Below are positions 1 through 7,508 of a stretch of DNA of 64,000 nt, one piece after another. The DNA lies in NCBI GenBank assembly GCA_020072785.1, contig JAIQGG010000004.1:186001-250000 (forward strand), written 5' to 3'. The position numbers and the translations under genes are program-made. Source of the stretch: Terriglobia bacterium. GTDB taxonomy: Bacteria; Acidobacteriota; Terriglobia; Acidiferrales; UBA7541. Numbering within the stretch: the first letter of the stretch is position 1; each line of letters starts with the position of its first letter. The notes beneath the pieces were generated by a model, which was not told where the DNA came from, searched no databases, and was given only the letters and a program-made list of their open reading frames with translations.

Positions 1-2118
1 GAGATTCCGGCTCGCACCCTCGCGCAACACTATCCCCGGATGGCCCCGGATATCGTCTCCAAAGATCACATTGAAGATGGCAAGCCGGTAGTCCGTGTCT
101 ACGTTCCCAGCGCAGAATCGATGTACAAGTTCCCTCCTCAAAACTGGGCTCTCATCCAGCTCTTTGATGGAAAGCGGTCTTACGAGGAGATCGCTGCAAT
201 TTATTCCCAACAGACGGGAATTTGGTATACCGCCGAAGCAGTCCGGGAATTCTCCGATGAACTTGAGGCCGCAGATTTCTGGTACAAGACGCCGCAGGAA
301 AAAAACATCCTGCTGATGCAGAAGAGCACAGAGGAACGCCGAGAACTTTTGAAATCGAAAAGCAAGTACGGCGATCTGTCGCTTTTCCTCTTTCCGGGAG
401 TCAATCCCGACAAGTTCCTCGACTGGTTGTATAAGTACACCAGTTTCTTCTATACCCCATGGTTCACGCTGGTTACCCTGGCGGCATTTGTCTTCACGGC
501 CGGTATCACCATCACGCACTGGCCGGAGATAGGCCGCGACACTCTGGAGTTCTACAACTTCTCGCATAAGTCGTTGTTGGATGTCGTCCAGTTCTACCTG
601 CTGGCGGTGGTGGTCCTCGGAATACACGAACTCGGGCACGGGCATGCCTGCAAACATTATGGCGGGCGTGTGCCCGCGATGGGATTCGCGCTCATCTATC
701 TGGCGCCTGCATTCTACACGGACACAACCGAGGGTGATGTCAAAGGAAATCGACAACAGCGTTTGGTCATCTCTCTGGCTGGAGTTTGGGCCGAATTGAT
801 GGTCTGCGCCATTGTCACGCCCATCTGGTGGGGCACACCCCCCGATACTCCTGTCCATAACGCCGCGTACATTCTCATGCTGATTACCGGGATTTCCGCT
901 GCTCTGGTGAATTGGAATCCGCTGATCAAGCTCGATGGCTACCACATGCTTTGTGAGACCCTCGGCATCGTGGACTTGAAAGAGGCCTCGACTGCCTATG
1001 TTTCGGGCTGGGTGAAAAATCATATCTGGGGCTTGCCGGTGGAAGTCCCTTACGTTCCCAAGCGGCGGCGGTTCGGATACGCCGTATATGCGCTTCTCTC
1101 TGGCCTCTACAGCTACTTAGTGTTGTACGTGCTTGCACACTTCGTGGGTAACGTCTTTCGCAATTTCAATCCCGAATGGTCCTTTATCCCTGAGTTGGCA
1201 ACAGCGGGCCTGATCTTTCAATCACGGATCCGCCTCTTGGTGAACTTTATGAAATTCGTTTACTTGGACAAGAAAGACAGGGTACTTGGATGGTTCACAC
1301 CCCGGCGCTCCATGGCAATGGCTGCGGGCATTGGAGCGTTGTTGTTGACCCCCTTGCGGCACGATGCCGTCATGGGGCGCTTCATTCTGGAACCATACAA
1401 ACGGGTTACGGTGCGTGCCGAGGTGCCCGGCATTGTAACGGACATTTATGCGGACGAAGGAAAGCCGGTGGAATCAGGGGCGTCTTTGGTGCGCTTGCGT
1501 AATTTGCCTTTGCAATCGAGGCTGGCGCGCAGCGAGTCTGAATACATCGTTACTTCCGGGCGAGCCGTGTCCGCGACTCTGCGCTATGACAACTTCGGGC
1601 CTGTGGTAAAGGAACGAGAAAGGCTGGCCCGACAGACCAGCATGCTTTTCTCCGAGGCCGCCAACCTGGAGCTCAAGAGCCCGATTTCCGGAGTGGTTCT
1701 GACGCCACACGCGACCGATCGCGTAGGAGCCTATGTCACGGAGGGAACGGAGCTTCTCGAGATCGCCGATTTGAACCAACTGCGTGCTCGCATTTATGTT
1801 TCGGAACACGATATGTATAAGCTGCGGGTGGGCTCCCACGCCAGCTTGCAAGTAGAGGGCATTCTCAAGAAATGGGACGCCCACGCGCTGGCTATTTCTG
1901 CCCTGTCTACTGAAATTGACCCAGGACTTGGGGATCAGACCCAGTACAAAGGGCTTCTGTCACCAAACTTCTACCTGGTCGATCTGCTGGTTGCGAACCC
2001 CGAAGGAATCCTCAAACCTGGAATGACCGGAACAGCCCGCGTTTACGCACAACGGCACAGCGTTGCTGGGTTCGCCTGGCAGGAGGTCAGGAATTTCTTT
2101 GGCCGAAAGGTGTGGTGA
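1..2118 (+). CDS. PqqD-M50 peptidase-HlyD fusion protein (5'-partial)
   Basis: A membrane fusion protein that probably binds, cleaves and/or exports a ribosomal peptide. Counting from the ATG at base 40, residues 1-85 look like a PqqD-type peptide-recognition domain. A membrane M50 metallopeptidase follows, with HELGH at 196-200 and a second metal ligand in the NPLIKLDGY segment (D299). After a last TM near 425-440, residues 450-690 form an HlyD-like barrel-sandwich adaptor (VRAEVPGIV, then LKSPISGVVL). The frame is open to base 1, and the residues before M1 (EIPARTLAQHYPRM) fit the start of this family, so the true start probably lies outside the window. It is convergent with the 81-residue peptide gene and ends in a shared terminator. 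An efflux adaptor role unrelated to the peptide is possible. Base composition is less GC-rich than in the genes further right. Confidence 0.85.
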   Translation, partial: EIPARTLAQHYPRMAPDIVSKDHIEDGKPVVRVYVPSAESMYKFPPQNWALIQLFDGKRSYEEIAAIYSQQTGIWYTAEAVREFSDELEAADFWYKTPQEKNILLMQKSTEERRELLKSKSKYGDLSLFLFPGVNPDKFLDWLYKYTSFFYTPWFTLVTLAAFVFTAGITITHWPEIGRDTLEFYNFSHKSLLDVVQFYLLAVVVLGIHELGHGHACKHYGGRVPAMGFALIYLAPAFYTDTTEGDVKGNRQQRLVISLAGVWAELMVCAIVTPIWWGTPPDTPVHNAAYILMLITGISAALVNWNPLIKLDGYHMLCETLGIVDLKEASTAYVSGWVKNHIWGLPVEVPYVPKRRRFGYAVYALLSGLYSYLVLYVLAHFVGNVFRNFNPEWSFIPELATAGLIFQSRIRLLVNFMKFVYLDKKDRVLGWFTPRRSMAMAAGIGALLLTPLRHDAVMGRFILEPYKRVTVRAEVPGIVTDIYADEGKPVESGASLVRLRNLPLQSRLARSESEYIVTSGRAVSATLRYDNFGPVVKERERLARQTSMLFSEAANLELKSPISGVVLTPHATDRVGAYVTEGTELLEIADLNQLRARIYVSEHDMYKLRVGSHASLQVEGILKKWDAHALAISALSTEIDPGLGDQTQYKGLLSPNFYLVDLLVANPEGILKPGMTGTARVYAQRHSVAGFAWQEVRNFFGRKVW

Positions 2119-2120
2119 TC

Positions 2121-2164
2121 AAAAAAAAAGGAAGGCTGCCCGTAGGCAGCCTTCCGTGTTTTTG
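2121..2164. terminator. bidirectional intrinsic terminator
   Basis: A perfect 11-bp stem (2130-2140 with 2145-2155) has a 4-nt loop. On the minus strand the loop reads C-UACG-G, a UNCG-type tetraloop, and is followed by nine T. On the plus strand it is followed by GTGTTTTT. It serves both the fusion gene (+) and the peptide gene (-), and looks stronger for the peptide gene. Confidence 0.9.
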
Positions 2165-2182
2165 AGAGTTCTCGATAATTAA

Positions 2183-2428
2183 TTAGATCTTGCCGAGCTT
2201 GCCCAACTTGCCGAGCTTGCCCAGTTTGCCCAACTTCCCCAACTTGCCGAGCTTACCCAGTTTGCCGAGCTTGCCCATGTTCGCGGCCCTGCCCAGGTTC
2301 GCGAACTTGCCCAGCTTCACGCCCTGCTCGGATTTTACGTCCGAGGCAGTGACCAGTGGCGCGCTGGCTACGTTGGCCTTCTTGGTCGTCTTCAGAGCGC
2401 TGATCAATGATTTCTTTTGGATTGCCAT
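2183..2428 (-). CDS. 81-aa repeat peptide, candidate RiPP precursor
   Basis: A small basic peptide of 81 residues. Residues 1-38 look like a leader (MAIQKKSLISALKTTKKANV, then SAPLVTASDV). Residues 39-80 are seven hexads of the form (L/M)-G-(K/R)-x-(A/G)-(N/K), and the last five are pure Leu-Gly-Lys/Leu-Gly-Lys, ending in I81. I chose the ATG at 2428 because a GGGAGGA ribosome-binding site lies just upstream; the frame stays open to 2545, but that part overlaps the promoter. No Cys, no double-glycine cleavage site and no signal peptide are seen. Synonymous codons vary across the repeats. It lies between a sigma-54 activator and a PqqD-M50-HlyD fusion, which suggests a substrate of that protein. 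A structural or DNA-binding peptide cannot be excluded. Confidence 0.8.
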   Translation of the reverse strand: MAIQKKSLISALKTTKKANVASAPLVTASDVKSEQGVKLGKFANLGRAANMGKLGKLGKLGKLGKLGKLGKLGKLGKLGKI

Positions 2429-2485
2429 TTTCCTGTCCTCCCTTAATTCCAATCTTGAGTGTGCCCCCGGAACACAGAGAATATA

Positions 2486-2501
2486 AGCAAGAGTAGTACC
2501 A
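2486..2501 (-). promoter_or_regulatory. sigma-54 (-24/-12) promoter of the peptide gene
   Basis: The minus strand reads TGGTACTACTCTTGCT. This matches the TGGCAC-N5-TTGCW consensus with the required 10 nt between GG and GC; the fourth base is T instead of C. The predicted transcription start is near 2475, giving a leader of about 47 nt with a good ribosome-binding site. A sigma-54 activator gene lies directly upstream. Confidence 0.75.
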
Positions 2502-2585
2502 AAGTTCTGCAGGTTTGTCAGAGAAACAACTACTTGCAGAATCAATCAGATGTGTTTCTTCTAATGTCATCGGAAAAGCAATAAA

Positions 2586-2641
2586 TAGTAAAAATTAAAC
2601 TTTTGGTTAAAATTTAACCATTATTGGGTTAAAAATTAATC
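2586..2641. promoter_or_regulatory. palindromic array, candidate activator-binding sites
   Basis: In an AT-rich stretch, GGTTAAAATTTAACC (2605-2619) is a perfect palindrome around one central base. A second copy with 13/15 matches starts 22 bp away at 2627 and overlaps the activator stop codon. A weaker copy (10/15) lies at 2586-2600. The main site is centred about 137 bp upstream of the predicted sigma-54 start, a usual enhancer distance. Binding by the adjacent activator is inferred. Confidence 0.55.
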
Positions 2642-4042
2642 TTTTTCAAGGCATAGCTTGCGACACAAATACTTCATACGCTGCGGATCGAGCCGGAGGA
2701 GCAGAGCGGCGGCTGATTTCTTGCCCCCGGTACGGCGCAGGGCGGCGGTGAGGTAGGCGATCTGGATGCGTTCCATCTCGGAATCGAAATCCACGCCTTT
2801 TTCGGGGATGAGAATGGCCTCCTGGCCGGCAGTGCTGGAAGAGAGCAAGTGCTGGGGCAGGTGCTCGGCGGAAATGACCGCGCCCTGGTTCATCACTACC
2901 AGCCGCTGCACGATGTTTTCAAGCTCGCGCACGTTGCCCGGCCAGGCGTAGTCCTCCAGGATCTCGACGACTTCGGGCTGCAATTGTTTGAGGGGCTTCT
3001 TGTTGGCCGCGCAGTAGACGCGCAGGAAGTGGTCCACGAGGAGGGGTATGTCCCCCGCGCGCTCGCGCAGGGGCGGAATGAAGATGGGCACCACATTGAT
3101 GCGGAAATAGAGGTCTTCGCGGAAGCGGCCCTTGCGCACGCAGTCTTCCAGGTCCTCGTTGGTTGCAGTGATAAGCCGGAAATCGATCTTGCGCGCCGAG
3201 CGTCCGCCGAGGCGCTGCACGGTGTGCTCCTGGAGCACGCGGAGCAGCTTGCTTTGCAGGCTCTGGTTCAGGGTGGTGATCTCGTCCAGGAAAAGCGTCC
3301 CGGTATCGGCCATTTCGATAAGCCCGGGTTTGGCGGCATCGGCTCCGGTGAAGGCGCCCTTCTCATAGCCGAAGAGCTCGGACTCGATGAGGCTCTCGGG
3401 AAGGGCCGAACAGTTCAGGCAGACGTAGGGTTTATTCTGGCGGTTGCCGAACTGCACGATGGCCTGGGCGATGAGCTCCTTGCCGGTTCCGCTTTCTCCG
3501 CGCAGAACGATGCTGGTATTGCTGTCGGCGACGGCCTGAATGGACTGATAGACTTTCTGCATGGCATCGCTGCCGCCGATCATGCCGCAGAATGCGGATT
3601 TGCTCTCCACCTGCTCGAGCATGCGCCGCCCTTCGAGCTCCAGGGCGCGTTTCTCGATAGCACGCACGAGGACAATCTGCAGCTCCTGGAAATTGACCGG
3701 GGAGAGGAAGAACTCGTCGGCGCCGGCCTGGCTGGCTTTTAGCGGTATCGCACGGCTCGTGGAGTGCGTCATGGCCACCAGGACGACATCCTCGCGGATT
3801 TGACGGATCTCTTTGAGAACCTCGATTCCGTCTTCGGCGCTGTTCTCGATGCTGTCCAGGTCCAAAAGGATGGCATGCAGGGGTTCGGTATCCATCAGGG
3901 CCCGGATCTGTTTTTCCGTGCTGGCCAGGACCGTCTGAAAGGCGGGAGCCAGGACGCGGCGCATCTCGAGGAAAGTCGACTCTTCCTCGGTGACAATCGC
4001 GATGGAGTACAGCACCCCGTGGGGATCGTTTTCGGAAAGCAT
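2636..4042 (-). CDS. orphan NtrC-family sigma-54 activator
   Basis: A 468-residue enhancer-binding protein, probably controlling the adjacent peptide gene. Residues 1-130 are a receiver-like domain: D61 could accept phosphate, and the usual acidic pair is E19/E20. The conserved Lys before Pro is replaced by Ser (S114-P115), so phosphorylation control may differ. The AAA+ domain (about 150-390) has GESGTGKE (Walker A), GAFTGA for sigma-54 contact, GTLFLDEI (Walker B) and R-finger motifs (FREDLYFRINV). A Fis-type helix-turn-helix ends the protein. No kinase gene is adjacent, unlike the other three NtrC-type genes in the window. The stop codon lies inside the palindromic array that precedes the peptide gene. 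Confidence 0.93.
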   Translation of the reverse strand: MLSENDPHGVLYSIAIVTEEESTFLEMRRVLAPAFQTVLASTEKQIRALMDTEPLHAILLDLDSIENSAEDGIEVLKEIRQIREDVVLVAMTHSTSRAIPLKASQAGADEFFLSPVNFQELQIVLVRAIEKRALELEGRRMLEQVESKSAFCGMIGGSDAMQKVYQSIQAVADSNTSIVLRGESGTGKELIAQAIVQFGNRQNKPYVCLNCSALPESLIESELFGYEKGAFTGADAAKPGLIEMADTGTLFLDEITTLNQSLQSKLLRVLQEHTVQRLGGRSARKIDFRLITATNEDLEDCVRKGRFREDLYFRINVVPIFIPPLRERAGDIPLLVDHFLRVYCAANKKPLKQLQPEVVEILEDYAWPGNVRELENIVQRLVVMNQGAVISAEHLPQHLLSSSTAGQEAILIPEKGVDFDSEMERIQIAYLTAALRRTGGKKSAAALLLRLDPQRMKYLCRKLCLEKD

Positions 4043-6040: not shown

Positions 6041-6119
6041 GCCGGGGAATGCGGGAACTTCGTCGGTCATCTTGGGGCCTGTGGTGTACGCTACGGTTTC
6101 GAGAAAAGGTGACTCCCGC

Positions 6120-7508
6120 ATGTCCAAGCACCGTTCGTTCTGGCTCCAGGAAATAGCCGGCGATGCACCGGAAGCGCCGCCCCTGCGCGGCGCTGCGAAA
6201 GCGGATGTGGCTATCATCGGCGGCGGCTACGTCGGGCTGTGGACCGCCATCCGCATCAAGGAACAGGCGCCGGGCTGCGATGTCACGGTTCTCGAGCAGG
6301 ACATCTGCGGCGGTGGCGCATCGGGGCGCAATGGCGGCTTCGTGCTCTCCTGGATGTCCAAGCTCTCTTCGCTGGCCCGGCTCTTCGGCATTGCCGAGGC
6401 GCTGCGCATCGCGCAACGTTCCGAGACGGCCATCGGGGAGATCGCGGAGTTCTGCCGGCTCCATCAGATTGACGCGGACTTCCGCAAGGGCGGCTGGCTG
6501 TGGACGGCGACAAGCAATGCGCAGCTCGATGCCTGGGAGAGCGTAGTGCGGCACTGCGAAGAGAACGGCGTGGCGAGCTTCCAACGGCTGGCGCCAGAGG
6601 AAGTTGCCCGGCGGGCGGGTTCGCGCGCGCATCGTGCCGGGGTCTATATCGAAGACGCCGCAGTGGTGCAGCCGGCCGCGCTGGCCCGTGGGCTTCGCCG
6701 CGTGGCCCTGGCGCTGGGTGTGCGCATCTTCGAGCACACGACGGTGCGGAATTTTACCCGCAGCTGCCCGGTGACATTGCAGACCGCCGAGGGAACGCTG
6801 GTGACGGAAAAACTGGTGATCGCTGCGAATGCCTGGTCGGCCAGCATCCGGGAGTTATCGCGGGCTATCGCCGTCATTTCCAGCGATATCATCGCCACCG
6901 CGCCGGCGCCCGCGCAACTCGCGCAGATCGGCTGGCACAAGGACCTCTCCATCACCGATTCCCAGACCATGGTGGACTACTACCGGGTCACGCGCGACTC
7001 CCGCGTGGTCTTCGGCAAGGGCGGTTGGACGATCGCCTATGGCGGCAAGATCGGCGCGAAATTCGATCGTCACGCGCAGCGCGCCGCGGAAGTGACCGCC
7101 GATTTTCGCCGCTACTACCCGCAACTAGCCGGCGTGCCCATCACCCACAATTGGTCCGGCCCGATCGACCGCACTCCGGAAAGCCTGCCGGTGCTCGGCT
7201 ATCTGGGCGGGCGGAAGAACATCTGCTACGGCATCGGCTGGAGCGGAAATGGCGTGGGCCCCAGTGTAATCGGCGGGAGGATTCTGGCGAGCCTGGTGTT
7301 GGAGCAAAGCGACGAGTGGAGCCGGCACCCGCTCGTTGGCCGTTCTGCCGCGGGATTTCCGCCGGAACCGCTGCGCTTCCTCGGTGCGCATCTGGTGCGC
7401 GCGGCCGTGGCCCGCAAGGAACGCGCCGAGATCGAAGGGAAGAAGCCCTCGGTACTGGCCGTACAGCTGGCGAAGCTGGCTCCCGCCGGCCTCGAAGACA
7501 AGAAGTGA
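6120..7508 (+). CDS. FAD-dependent amine/amino-acid oxidoreductase (DAO family)
   Basis: A 462-residue flavoenzyme of the D-amino-acid oxidase-like family, probably oxidising an amine or amino acid. The FAD-binding Rossmann motif VAIIGGGYVG is near residue 30, and GASGRNGGFVLSW fits the conserved flavin-contact segment. The C-terminal THNWSGPIDRTPESLPVLG and GIGWSGNGVGPS blocks resemble gamma-glutamylputrescine oxidase and related enzymes. I chose the ATG at 6120, preceded by AAAAGGTG; an upstream frame to 6039 has no good start. It stands alone, followed by a repeat-bearing spacer. The substrate is not resolvable from sequence. Confidence 0.85.
   Translation: MSKHRSFWLQEIAGDAPEAPPLRGAAKADVAIIGGGYVGLWTAIRIKEQAPGCDVTVLEQDICGGGASGRNGGFVLSWMSKLSSLARLFGIAEALRIAQRSETAIGEIAEFCRLHQIDADFRKGGWLWTATSNAQLDAWESVVRHCEENGVASFQRLAPEEVARRAGSRAHRAGVYIEDAAVVQPAALARGLRRVALALGVRIFEHTTVRNFTRSCPVTLQTAEGTLVTEKLVIAANAWSASIRELSRAIAVISSDIIATAPAPAQLAQIGWHKDLSITDSQTMVDYYRVTRDSRVVFGKGGWTIAYGGKIGAKFDRHAQRAAEVTADFRRYYPQLAGVPITHNWSGPIDRTPESLPVLGYLGGRKNICYGIGWSGNGVGPSVIGGRILASLVLEQSDEWSRHPLVGRSAAGFPPEPLRFLGAHLVRAAVARKERAEIEGKKPSVLAVQLAKLAPAGLEDKK

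Follow-up and report, generated by a model that had tools for sequence, protein, structure and literature searches.

The first 4,042 nucleotides of the window, a 64,000-nucleotide stretch of a Terriglobia bacterium genome (GenBank assembly GCA_020072785.1, contig JAIQGG010000004.1, positions 186,001 to 250,000), carry genes of what is probably a dedicated leader-guided system, in which multi-copy peptides would be induced through sigma-54 and then cleaved and exported under the guidance of an RRE (recognition element of ribosomally synthesized and post-translationally modified peptides, RiPPs). As the original prediction had described, a peptide gene (positions 2183-2428, minus strand) was located between a gene for a fusion protein (1-2118, plus strand) and a gene for a sigma-54 activator (2636-4042, minus strand). 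The 717-residue fusion combines a PqqD-like RRE, an M50 membrane metalloprotease and a HlyD adaptor, as assigned by homology, profile and fold. Its gene starts 36 nt (12 codons) to the left of the window (C4:185965-188118) and is the last of a three-gene operon that also includes a triple-GAF-HlyD gene (C4:182610-185018) and a HlyD/RND-type adaptor gene (C4:185021-185968), so that the window contains only the 3′ part of the cassette. The precursor and activator genes converge on this operon. The system is larger than the original prediction described, which mentioned neither the two upstream adaptor genes nor the tandem palindromes and the species-specific repeats of relatives presented below. 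The locus is regarded as real rather than a product of chance, since dozens of genomes share its leader, promoter, spacing and order of genes, and since non-synonymous differences between the repeat units of the precursors (pN) fall well below synonymous ones (pS).

To describe the conservation of the cassette, 81 related genomes were searched and one scan of named genomes was performed, yielding 79 named loci, nearly all from Acidobacteriota and including the cultured carriers Edaphobacter lichenicola (M8US30/M8UP22), Granulicella aggregans (M8UP14) and Granulicella sp. Almost all of these loci retain the order GAF-HlyD, HlyD, fusion, slot and activator, the slot being the stretch between the fusion and activator genes, which holds a small gene on the strand of the activator. 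Precursor presence was scored where 500 nt or more of the slot were available; 59 such loci contained a precursor and eight did not. Wherever the activator was visible a precursor was present (52 of 52 loci), and no activator was visible at any of the eight precursor-less loci. Two of the 59 slot precursors (L069 and L108) use a GTG start. Conserved neighbours across the 79 loci were limited to the GAF-HlyD, HlyD, fusion and activator genes, plus a divergent STAS protein at 24 loci. The latter gene, of the anti-anti-sigma type, is usually divergent from the GAF-HlyD operon; it occurs to the left of the window (L002 at ~6084-6430) and, for example, in L060 at 6043-6498, both on the minus strand. 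A single metagenome-assembled genome (JAICSO; L088 and L108) contains two full cassettes that differ in their repeats, (GHSPKVV)n in one and (QSRV)n in the other.

Linkage between the leader and the fusion gene was assessed by running a profile of the leader found in the window (type I) on 250 genomes of the same class. Twelve genomes matched, and in all twelve the match lay within ~0.5 kb of a fusion gene and on the opposite strand, which, together with the shared gene order in relatives, upholds the earlier proposal that peptide, fusion and activator form one system. Three further genomes of this sample (G217, G244 and G184), with fusion scores falling in the range of type I, gave no leader match. 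Among the 81 related genomes, the type I profile reached E <= 1e-9 in only seven, each with a type I fusion; in the remaining genome with a type I fusion (G034), the contig stops 141 bp past the fusion gene. Matches to a type II leader profile at E <= 1e-3 were likewise confined to genomes with a type II fusion. The original prediction had named two findings that would speak against it, namely peptide homologues far from any fusion gene and a fusion paired with a different substrate. No peptide was found in fusion-less genomes, although one genome, G040, has extra precursors on other contigs; three leader types do occur, but only as lineage-specific variants. Genome G040 holds about ten short type II precursors (contigs C76, C147, C268, C300 and C397; L174, L177, L178, L181 and L182), many of them away from the cassette and several on other contigs, each with a leader and most with their own -24/-12 site, which reads as a dispersed peptide regulon.

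The slot precursors were shown to carry one of three leader types, with tails that differ by lineage. The type I leader follows the pattern M-x-I-Q-K-K-S-L-I-S..T-x-K-K-A and the type II leader M-A-K..L-K-K-G-K-K-L, while a type III leader (..L-T-x-x-Q-x-x-x-I/V-x-x-A-T-G) was found at five loci (L121, L123, L126, L129 and L133). Three of these five loci encode 12-13-residue repeats (KAPLSVDAEASR, RANPLQIGGTETD) which, unlike the tails of types I and II, have acidic residues within them. The leader types pair with distinct N-termini of the fusion protein (MNI.., MRFGPTSL.. or neither), and genome G003, in which type I and type II fusions occur together, contains both leader types. In the window, the 81-residue precursor, recognized from its sequence and its relatives, consists of a conserved leader (residues 1-24, positions 2357-2428, minus strand, by leader profile), a spacer and a tandem repeat core of ten three-residue units (GKL nine times, then GKI; positions 2186-2275, minus strand, by periodicity and pN/pS).

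Type I tails are mostly tandem repeats, such as (GKL)n, (RPAVA)n, (LSGGKG)20 and (GHSPKVV)n. Across the precursors, the sequence that follows the leader varies freely, with ANTR, RAGTL, KMH, ASPARI, NQPLLK, VSKAPL, RVTPHA, LAKSTN, LSKGGA, LQRTA and others as further units. Significant periodicity was detected in 46 of 78 precursors (5,138 residues in total), with unit lengths of 3-13 residues. A search for GKL repeats in relatives returned no match, as this repeat is not conserved; slot and leader alone led to the peptides. Pfam and NCBIfam scans of the precursors identified no covering family, and a candidate assignment of the window peptide as collagen-like (Scl/PF01391) was rejected, its scores being far below the cut-offs and attributable to composition. 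For 27 unit arrays, pN and pS were compared between repeat units. In most of these arrays the unit contains exactly one basic residue (Lys or Arg), and acidic residues are missing from the units of all 27. pN was below pS in all 27 (means of 0.117 and 0.597, respectively), indicating that the unit keeps its amino acid sequence while its codons drift; as judged from these arrays, the repeat units are under purifying selection. The small pN of the GKL array is mostly due to Leu codons that differ by two steps and to the Ile at the end.

The most likely role of such peptides is, tentatively, that of a lineage-specific extracellular signal or competition peptide. As a signal, the tail could be a multi-copy pheromone, each type I unit or short type II product (e.g. 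KPL+TIVGVGRQ) being one signal copy read by its own lineage. A unit that is kept within a gene (pN/pS about 0.2) yet different in nearly every species is consistent with this reading, as are the several short precursors per type II genome with their variable 8-10-residue ends and a dedicated activator with a single target; however, no receptor was identified, the GAF and receiver-like domains being candidates only, and histidine kinases are not among the conserved neighbours, which leaves the pheromone a rather doubtful proposition. As a competition peptide, the tail would be a secreted antimicrobial, bacteriocin-like polycation, with amphipathic or simply cationic repeats that harm competitors and with variability reflecting an arms race. 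Across the 78 precursors Cys is absent, Tyr and Trp are almost absent, and K+R amount to ~21% compared with 3% for D+E. This composition with few aromatics, the soil habitat and the antimicrobial activity of EpeX, an M50-exported epipeptide (PMC10885120), agree with such a function. Nevertheless, an antimicrobial is considered unlikely, given that the cassette has no conserved immunity gene, that ANTR and SKGGA units are atypical of membrane-active sequences and that the exact unit identity kept by purifying selection exceeds what charge alone would need.

The precursor gene of the window is preceded by a -24/-12 promoter, as originally predicted (TGGTACTACTCTTGCT, positions 2486-2501, minus strand, 73 nt ahead of the ATG). 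With a criterion of TGG-N10-GC and at least 8 of 12 consensus positions matched, a site was found upstream of 69 of 78 precursors, at -59 to -92 (median -70), compared with 1.5% of shuffled upstream regions; the proportion is slightly flattered, since a few precursors were recognized with the promoter shown. A corresponding site ahead of the GAF-HlyD operon was considered and rejected, being present at just 2 of 55 loci. Most type I precursors are additionally preceded by tandem palindromes (GGTTAAnnnTTAACC). Of the 45 entries listed as type I (among them L178, actually a type II precursor), 34 had a match to GGTTAA-N3-TTAACC with at most one mismatch, versus 0.09% of shuffles; the palindrome usually occurs in pairs with a spacing of 22 bp. 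By pattern search, the window holds an exact copy (GGTTAAAATTTAACC, positions 2605-2619, 118 nt upstream of the -24/-12 site) and, 22 bp or two helical turns from it, a second copy with one mismatch (GGTTAAAAATTAATC, positions 2627-2641), both of them candidate activator sites. These are the only two such sites in the 3.73 Mb genome of the window organism, both ahead of the precursor gene, and at this threshold no other target of the activator was found in that genome.

Domain matches divide the 468-residue activator into a receiver-like domain, an AAA+ domain with a GAFTGA motif and a C-terminal Fis-type helix-turn-helix. Among 40 aligned activators, GAFTGA and the residues at the end of the helix-turn-helix (YLCRK) were largely or fully kept. 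The receiver domain is diverged, the usual Lys having been lost from most of the 40, which renders control by phosphorylation doubtful. A sigma-54 gene (rpoN) is present in the genome, so that a GAFTGA-containing AAA+ activator, a -24/-12 promoter and rpoN, the components of a sigma-54 regulon, are all found together. The remaining features of the intergenic regions are a ribosome-binding site recognized from sequence (AAGGGAGG, positions 2437-2444, minus strand) and a perfect 11-bp hairpin at positions 2130-2155 (GGAAGGCTGCC-CGTA-GGCAGCCTTCC; no strand assigned), read from the sequence, with an A-run on one side and a T-run on the other, which is likely to be a shared terminator for both convergent genes.

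In the model of the fusion protein, the RRE extends over residues ~21-108 and the M50 domain over ~146-340, followed by more transmembrane helices to ~460 and the adaptor at 461-717. The PqqD domain claimed in the original prediction was recovered as an RRE by family profile and predicted fold, but not by the Pfam PqqD model itself, whose single match in the genome lies elsewhere. When a family profile of the N-terminal domain was compared with the Protein Data Bank (PDB), the top four matches, all with modest E-values (0.003-0.07), were PqqD (3g2b, E=0.003; 5sxy, E=0.004), PqqC/D and the lasso RRE TbiB1. An AlphaFold2 model of this domain has a pLDDT of ~90 over residues 31-100 and a bbb-aaa topology. 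Its top five Foldseek matches are TbiB1 chains complexed with a leader peptide, and a second structural aligner retrieved lasso B1, TigE and PqqD at Z 8.2-9.3, with many other RRE proteins lower. By profile and predicted fold, the N-terminal domain of the fusion is an RRE. The protease motifs HExxH (H221/E222/H225) and NPLxKLDG (D324) are intact in the fusion and do not vary among 65 homologues. The C-terminal part resembles MacA/MexA/AcrA adaptors by profile and fold, and PF16576/PF13437 score above cut-off in all three adaptor-bearing proteins (GAF-HlyD, HlyD and the fusion). A hypervariable region that might read the core was also sought; no domain of the fusion stands out, with mean identities of 0.38-0.59.

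A protease that also exports has a precedent in EpeP, an M50 protease thought both to cleave and to export an epipeptide (review, PMC10885120). The epipeptide proteases EpeP/YydH/LiaK (NF058609) are also M50 membrane proteases, which process a small secreted peptide and are thought to be its exporters (PMC10885120), but the fusion scores 38 bits against a cut-off of 225 and the model has no HlyD part; furthermore, no radical-SAM enzyme, such as the epimerase of epipeptide systems, is found here among the conserved neighbours, and repeat cores take the place of the epipeptide (YydF/EpeX) substrate. The nearest NCBIfam model, matching fusion residues 12-363 with an E-value of 2e-40, is the daptide intramembrane metalloprotease NF041824, likewise an M50-type enzyme of peptide maturation. 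The fusion reaches 139 bits against its cut-off of 300, that profile also has no HlyD part, and the conserved neighbours of the fusion, in contrast to the daptide system, include no modification enzyme. The HlyD/MacA/MexA adaptors known from tripartite pumps and type I secretion share the adaptor domain and fold, whereas the adaptor described here is fused to a protease, in a cassette without a gene for an energized inner-membrane pump.

Taken together, these parts suggest the following sequence of events. An operon without a -24/-12 site, which would be constitutive, provides the triple-GAF-HlyD protein, the HlyD adaptor and the RRE-M50-HlyD fusion. Upon a signal, the activator would bind the observed tandem palindromes and switch on the precursor gene alone via its -24/-12 site. 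The RRE of the fusion may then hold the leader (MxIQKKSLIS..TxKKA) at the membrane, as fold and co-occurrence suggest, and the M50 domain, with its intact zinc motifs, would remove it. The three adaptor parts could carry the tail across the periplasm, probably to a TolC-family channel; about ten TolC-family proteins are encoded in the genome. A type I multi-copy tail, usually with one basic residue per unit, would emerge either as one polycation or as several short unit copies. That a single protein recognizes, cleaves and exports the peptide, as proposed in the original prediction, is something we infer, and the set includes two more HlyD-type adaptors.

Several observations weigh against this scheme. 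Certain type II tails are just ~8-15 residues long and non-repetitive, and precursors L118, L121, L124, L128 and L133 were among those chosen with the promoter already visible. Beyond Terriglobia and near kin, relatives of the fusion (L132, L134-L137) have no recognized peptide. No ABC, RND or MFS pump was found among the conserved neighbours at the 79 loci or in the 10 kb to the left of the window, where the original prediction had expected an exporter and where two adaptor genes (triple-GAF-HlyD and HlyD) lie instead; the export step therefore lacks an obvious driver. In a search for conserved cassette members, ABC, RND and TolC genes were all rejected across the 79 loci, the RND genes at L040 being confined to that single locus.

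The precursors could, moreover, be low-complexity polycations that stay inside the cell, as nucleoid or RNA-binding peptides similar to histone H1 or AlgP, encoded beside an envelope operon whose RRE/M50 fusion degrades the peptide or uses it as a regulatory inhibitor. The absence of an export ATPase from the cassette would fit such a role, and repeats such as KIAPKVAP and RPAVA are, we presume, akin to low-complexity DNA-binding tails. However, the leader is found only with the fusion gene, leader types track fusion types, and a DNA-binding peptide of the cytoplasm would hardly call for an RRE coupled to a periplasmic adaptor, which makes an intracellular polycation improbable.

A further point against the proposed system is that no modification enzyme is present in the cassette of the window organism and none is conserved across the 79 loci, so that the term RiPP in its strict sense is unproven. 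What was found of a RiPP pathway is an encoded precursor with a conserved leader and a variable core, and a predicted RRE in a pathway protein. Known RRE-containing RiPP systems (PqqD, lasso B1 and cyanobactin heterocyclases) share the small β-strand and winged helix-turn-helix fold, the conserved leader and the variable core, but here the RRE is joined in one protein with a membrane protease and a periplasmic adaptor, in a set without a tailoring enzyme. SET-domain genes (PF00856, lysine-methyltransferase-like), which are rare in bacteria, adjoin precursors in four lineages, all on the minus strand: L116 (12128-12580) and L119 (12199-12651), L117 (7539-7991), L074 (4118-4570) and, beside an extra G040 precursor on a contig without a cassette, L177 (813-1229). 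Given the Lys-rich tails, the encoded proteins are possible tailoring enzymes, with lysine methylation as an obvious guess for these lineages. An ordinary RiPP pathway, with its modifying enzyme elsewhere or, in these lineages, next door, and with the fusion acting as leader protease and exporter, could accommodate these SET genes as well as the RRE and the variable core. Yet such a pathway seems rather unlikely, as the genome of the window organism has no SET-domain gene, no modification enzyme is conserved across the 79 loci, and the lack of Cys in the precursors excludes thioether and disulfide chemistry.

Related genes were also observed outside the lineages with recognized precursors. In Bacteriovoracaceae/Oligoflexia (L134-L137), an M50-HlyD fusion is followed by HlyD, with no sigma-54 activator or recognized precursor, and a GAF-HlyD-like gene is located on the opposite strand in three of the four loci. 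In other acidobacterial families (L057, 111-5624 and 6520-8955; L055; L058), a related M50-HlyD gene lies next to or near an activator of ~1830 residues with Ser/Thr kinase, AAA, TPR, GAF and sigma-54 activator parts, and no -24/-12 peptide was seen at these loci. Nor were precursors seen adjoining more distant M50-HlyD genes of other classes.

Precursors with many near-identical units in one gene, flanked by basic residues, are familiar from yeast alpha-factor and fungal kexin-processed peptides. The peptides described here differ in being bacterial, in their RRE-type leader and sigma-54 control, in having K/R within rather than between units, and in that their processing is only proposed. 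Although each building block is known, the combination of the fusion with hypervariable repeat substrates and sigma-54 wiring is not. No description uniting M50, HlyD, RRE, RiPP and Acidobacteria was found in the open-access literature, which, being open access only, is weak evidence of novelty. It is possible, if speculative, that an M50 protease stands in place of an ABC or RND pump at the base of a HlyD adaptor assembly, taking leader-tagged substrates through its own RRE and releasing lineage-specific multi-copy peptides without an ATPase of its own, and that these constitute an unrecognized class of hypervariable, sigma-54-controlled secreted peptides. If the proposed system is correct, it would provide a test case for pump-less export by a membrane protease and adaptors, dozens of natural leader/tail swaps would reveal what an RRE-guided membrane protease accepts, and concrete secreted peptides would be predicted for cultivable Edaphobacter and Granulicella strains. 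These abundant, little-studied soil bacteria would then own a private peptide channel, whose product varies almost per species while its machinery remains constant.

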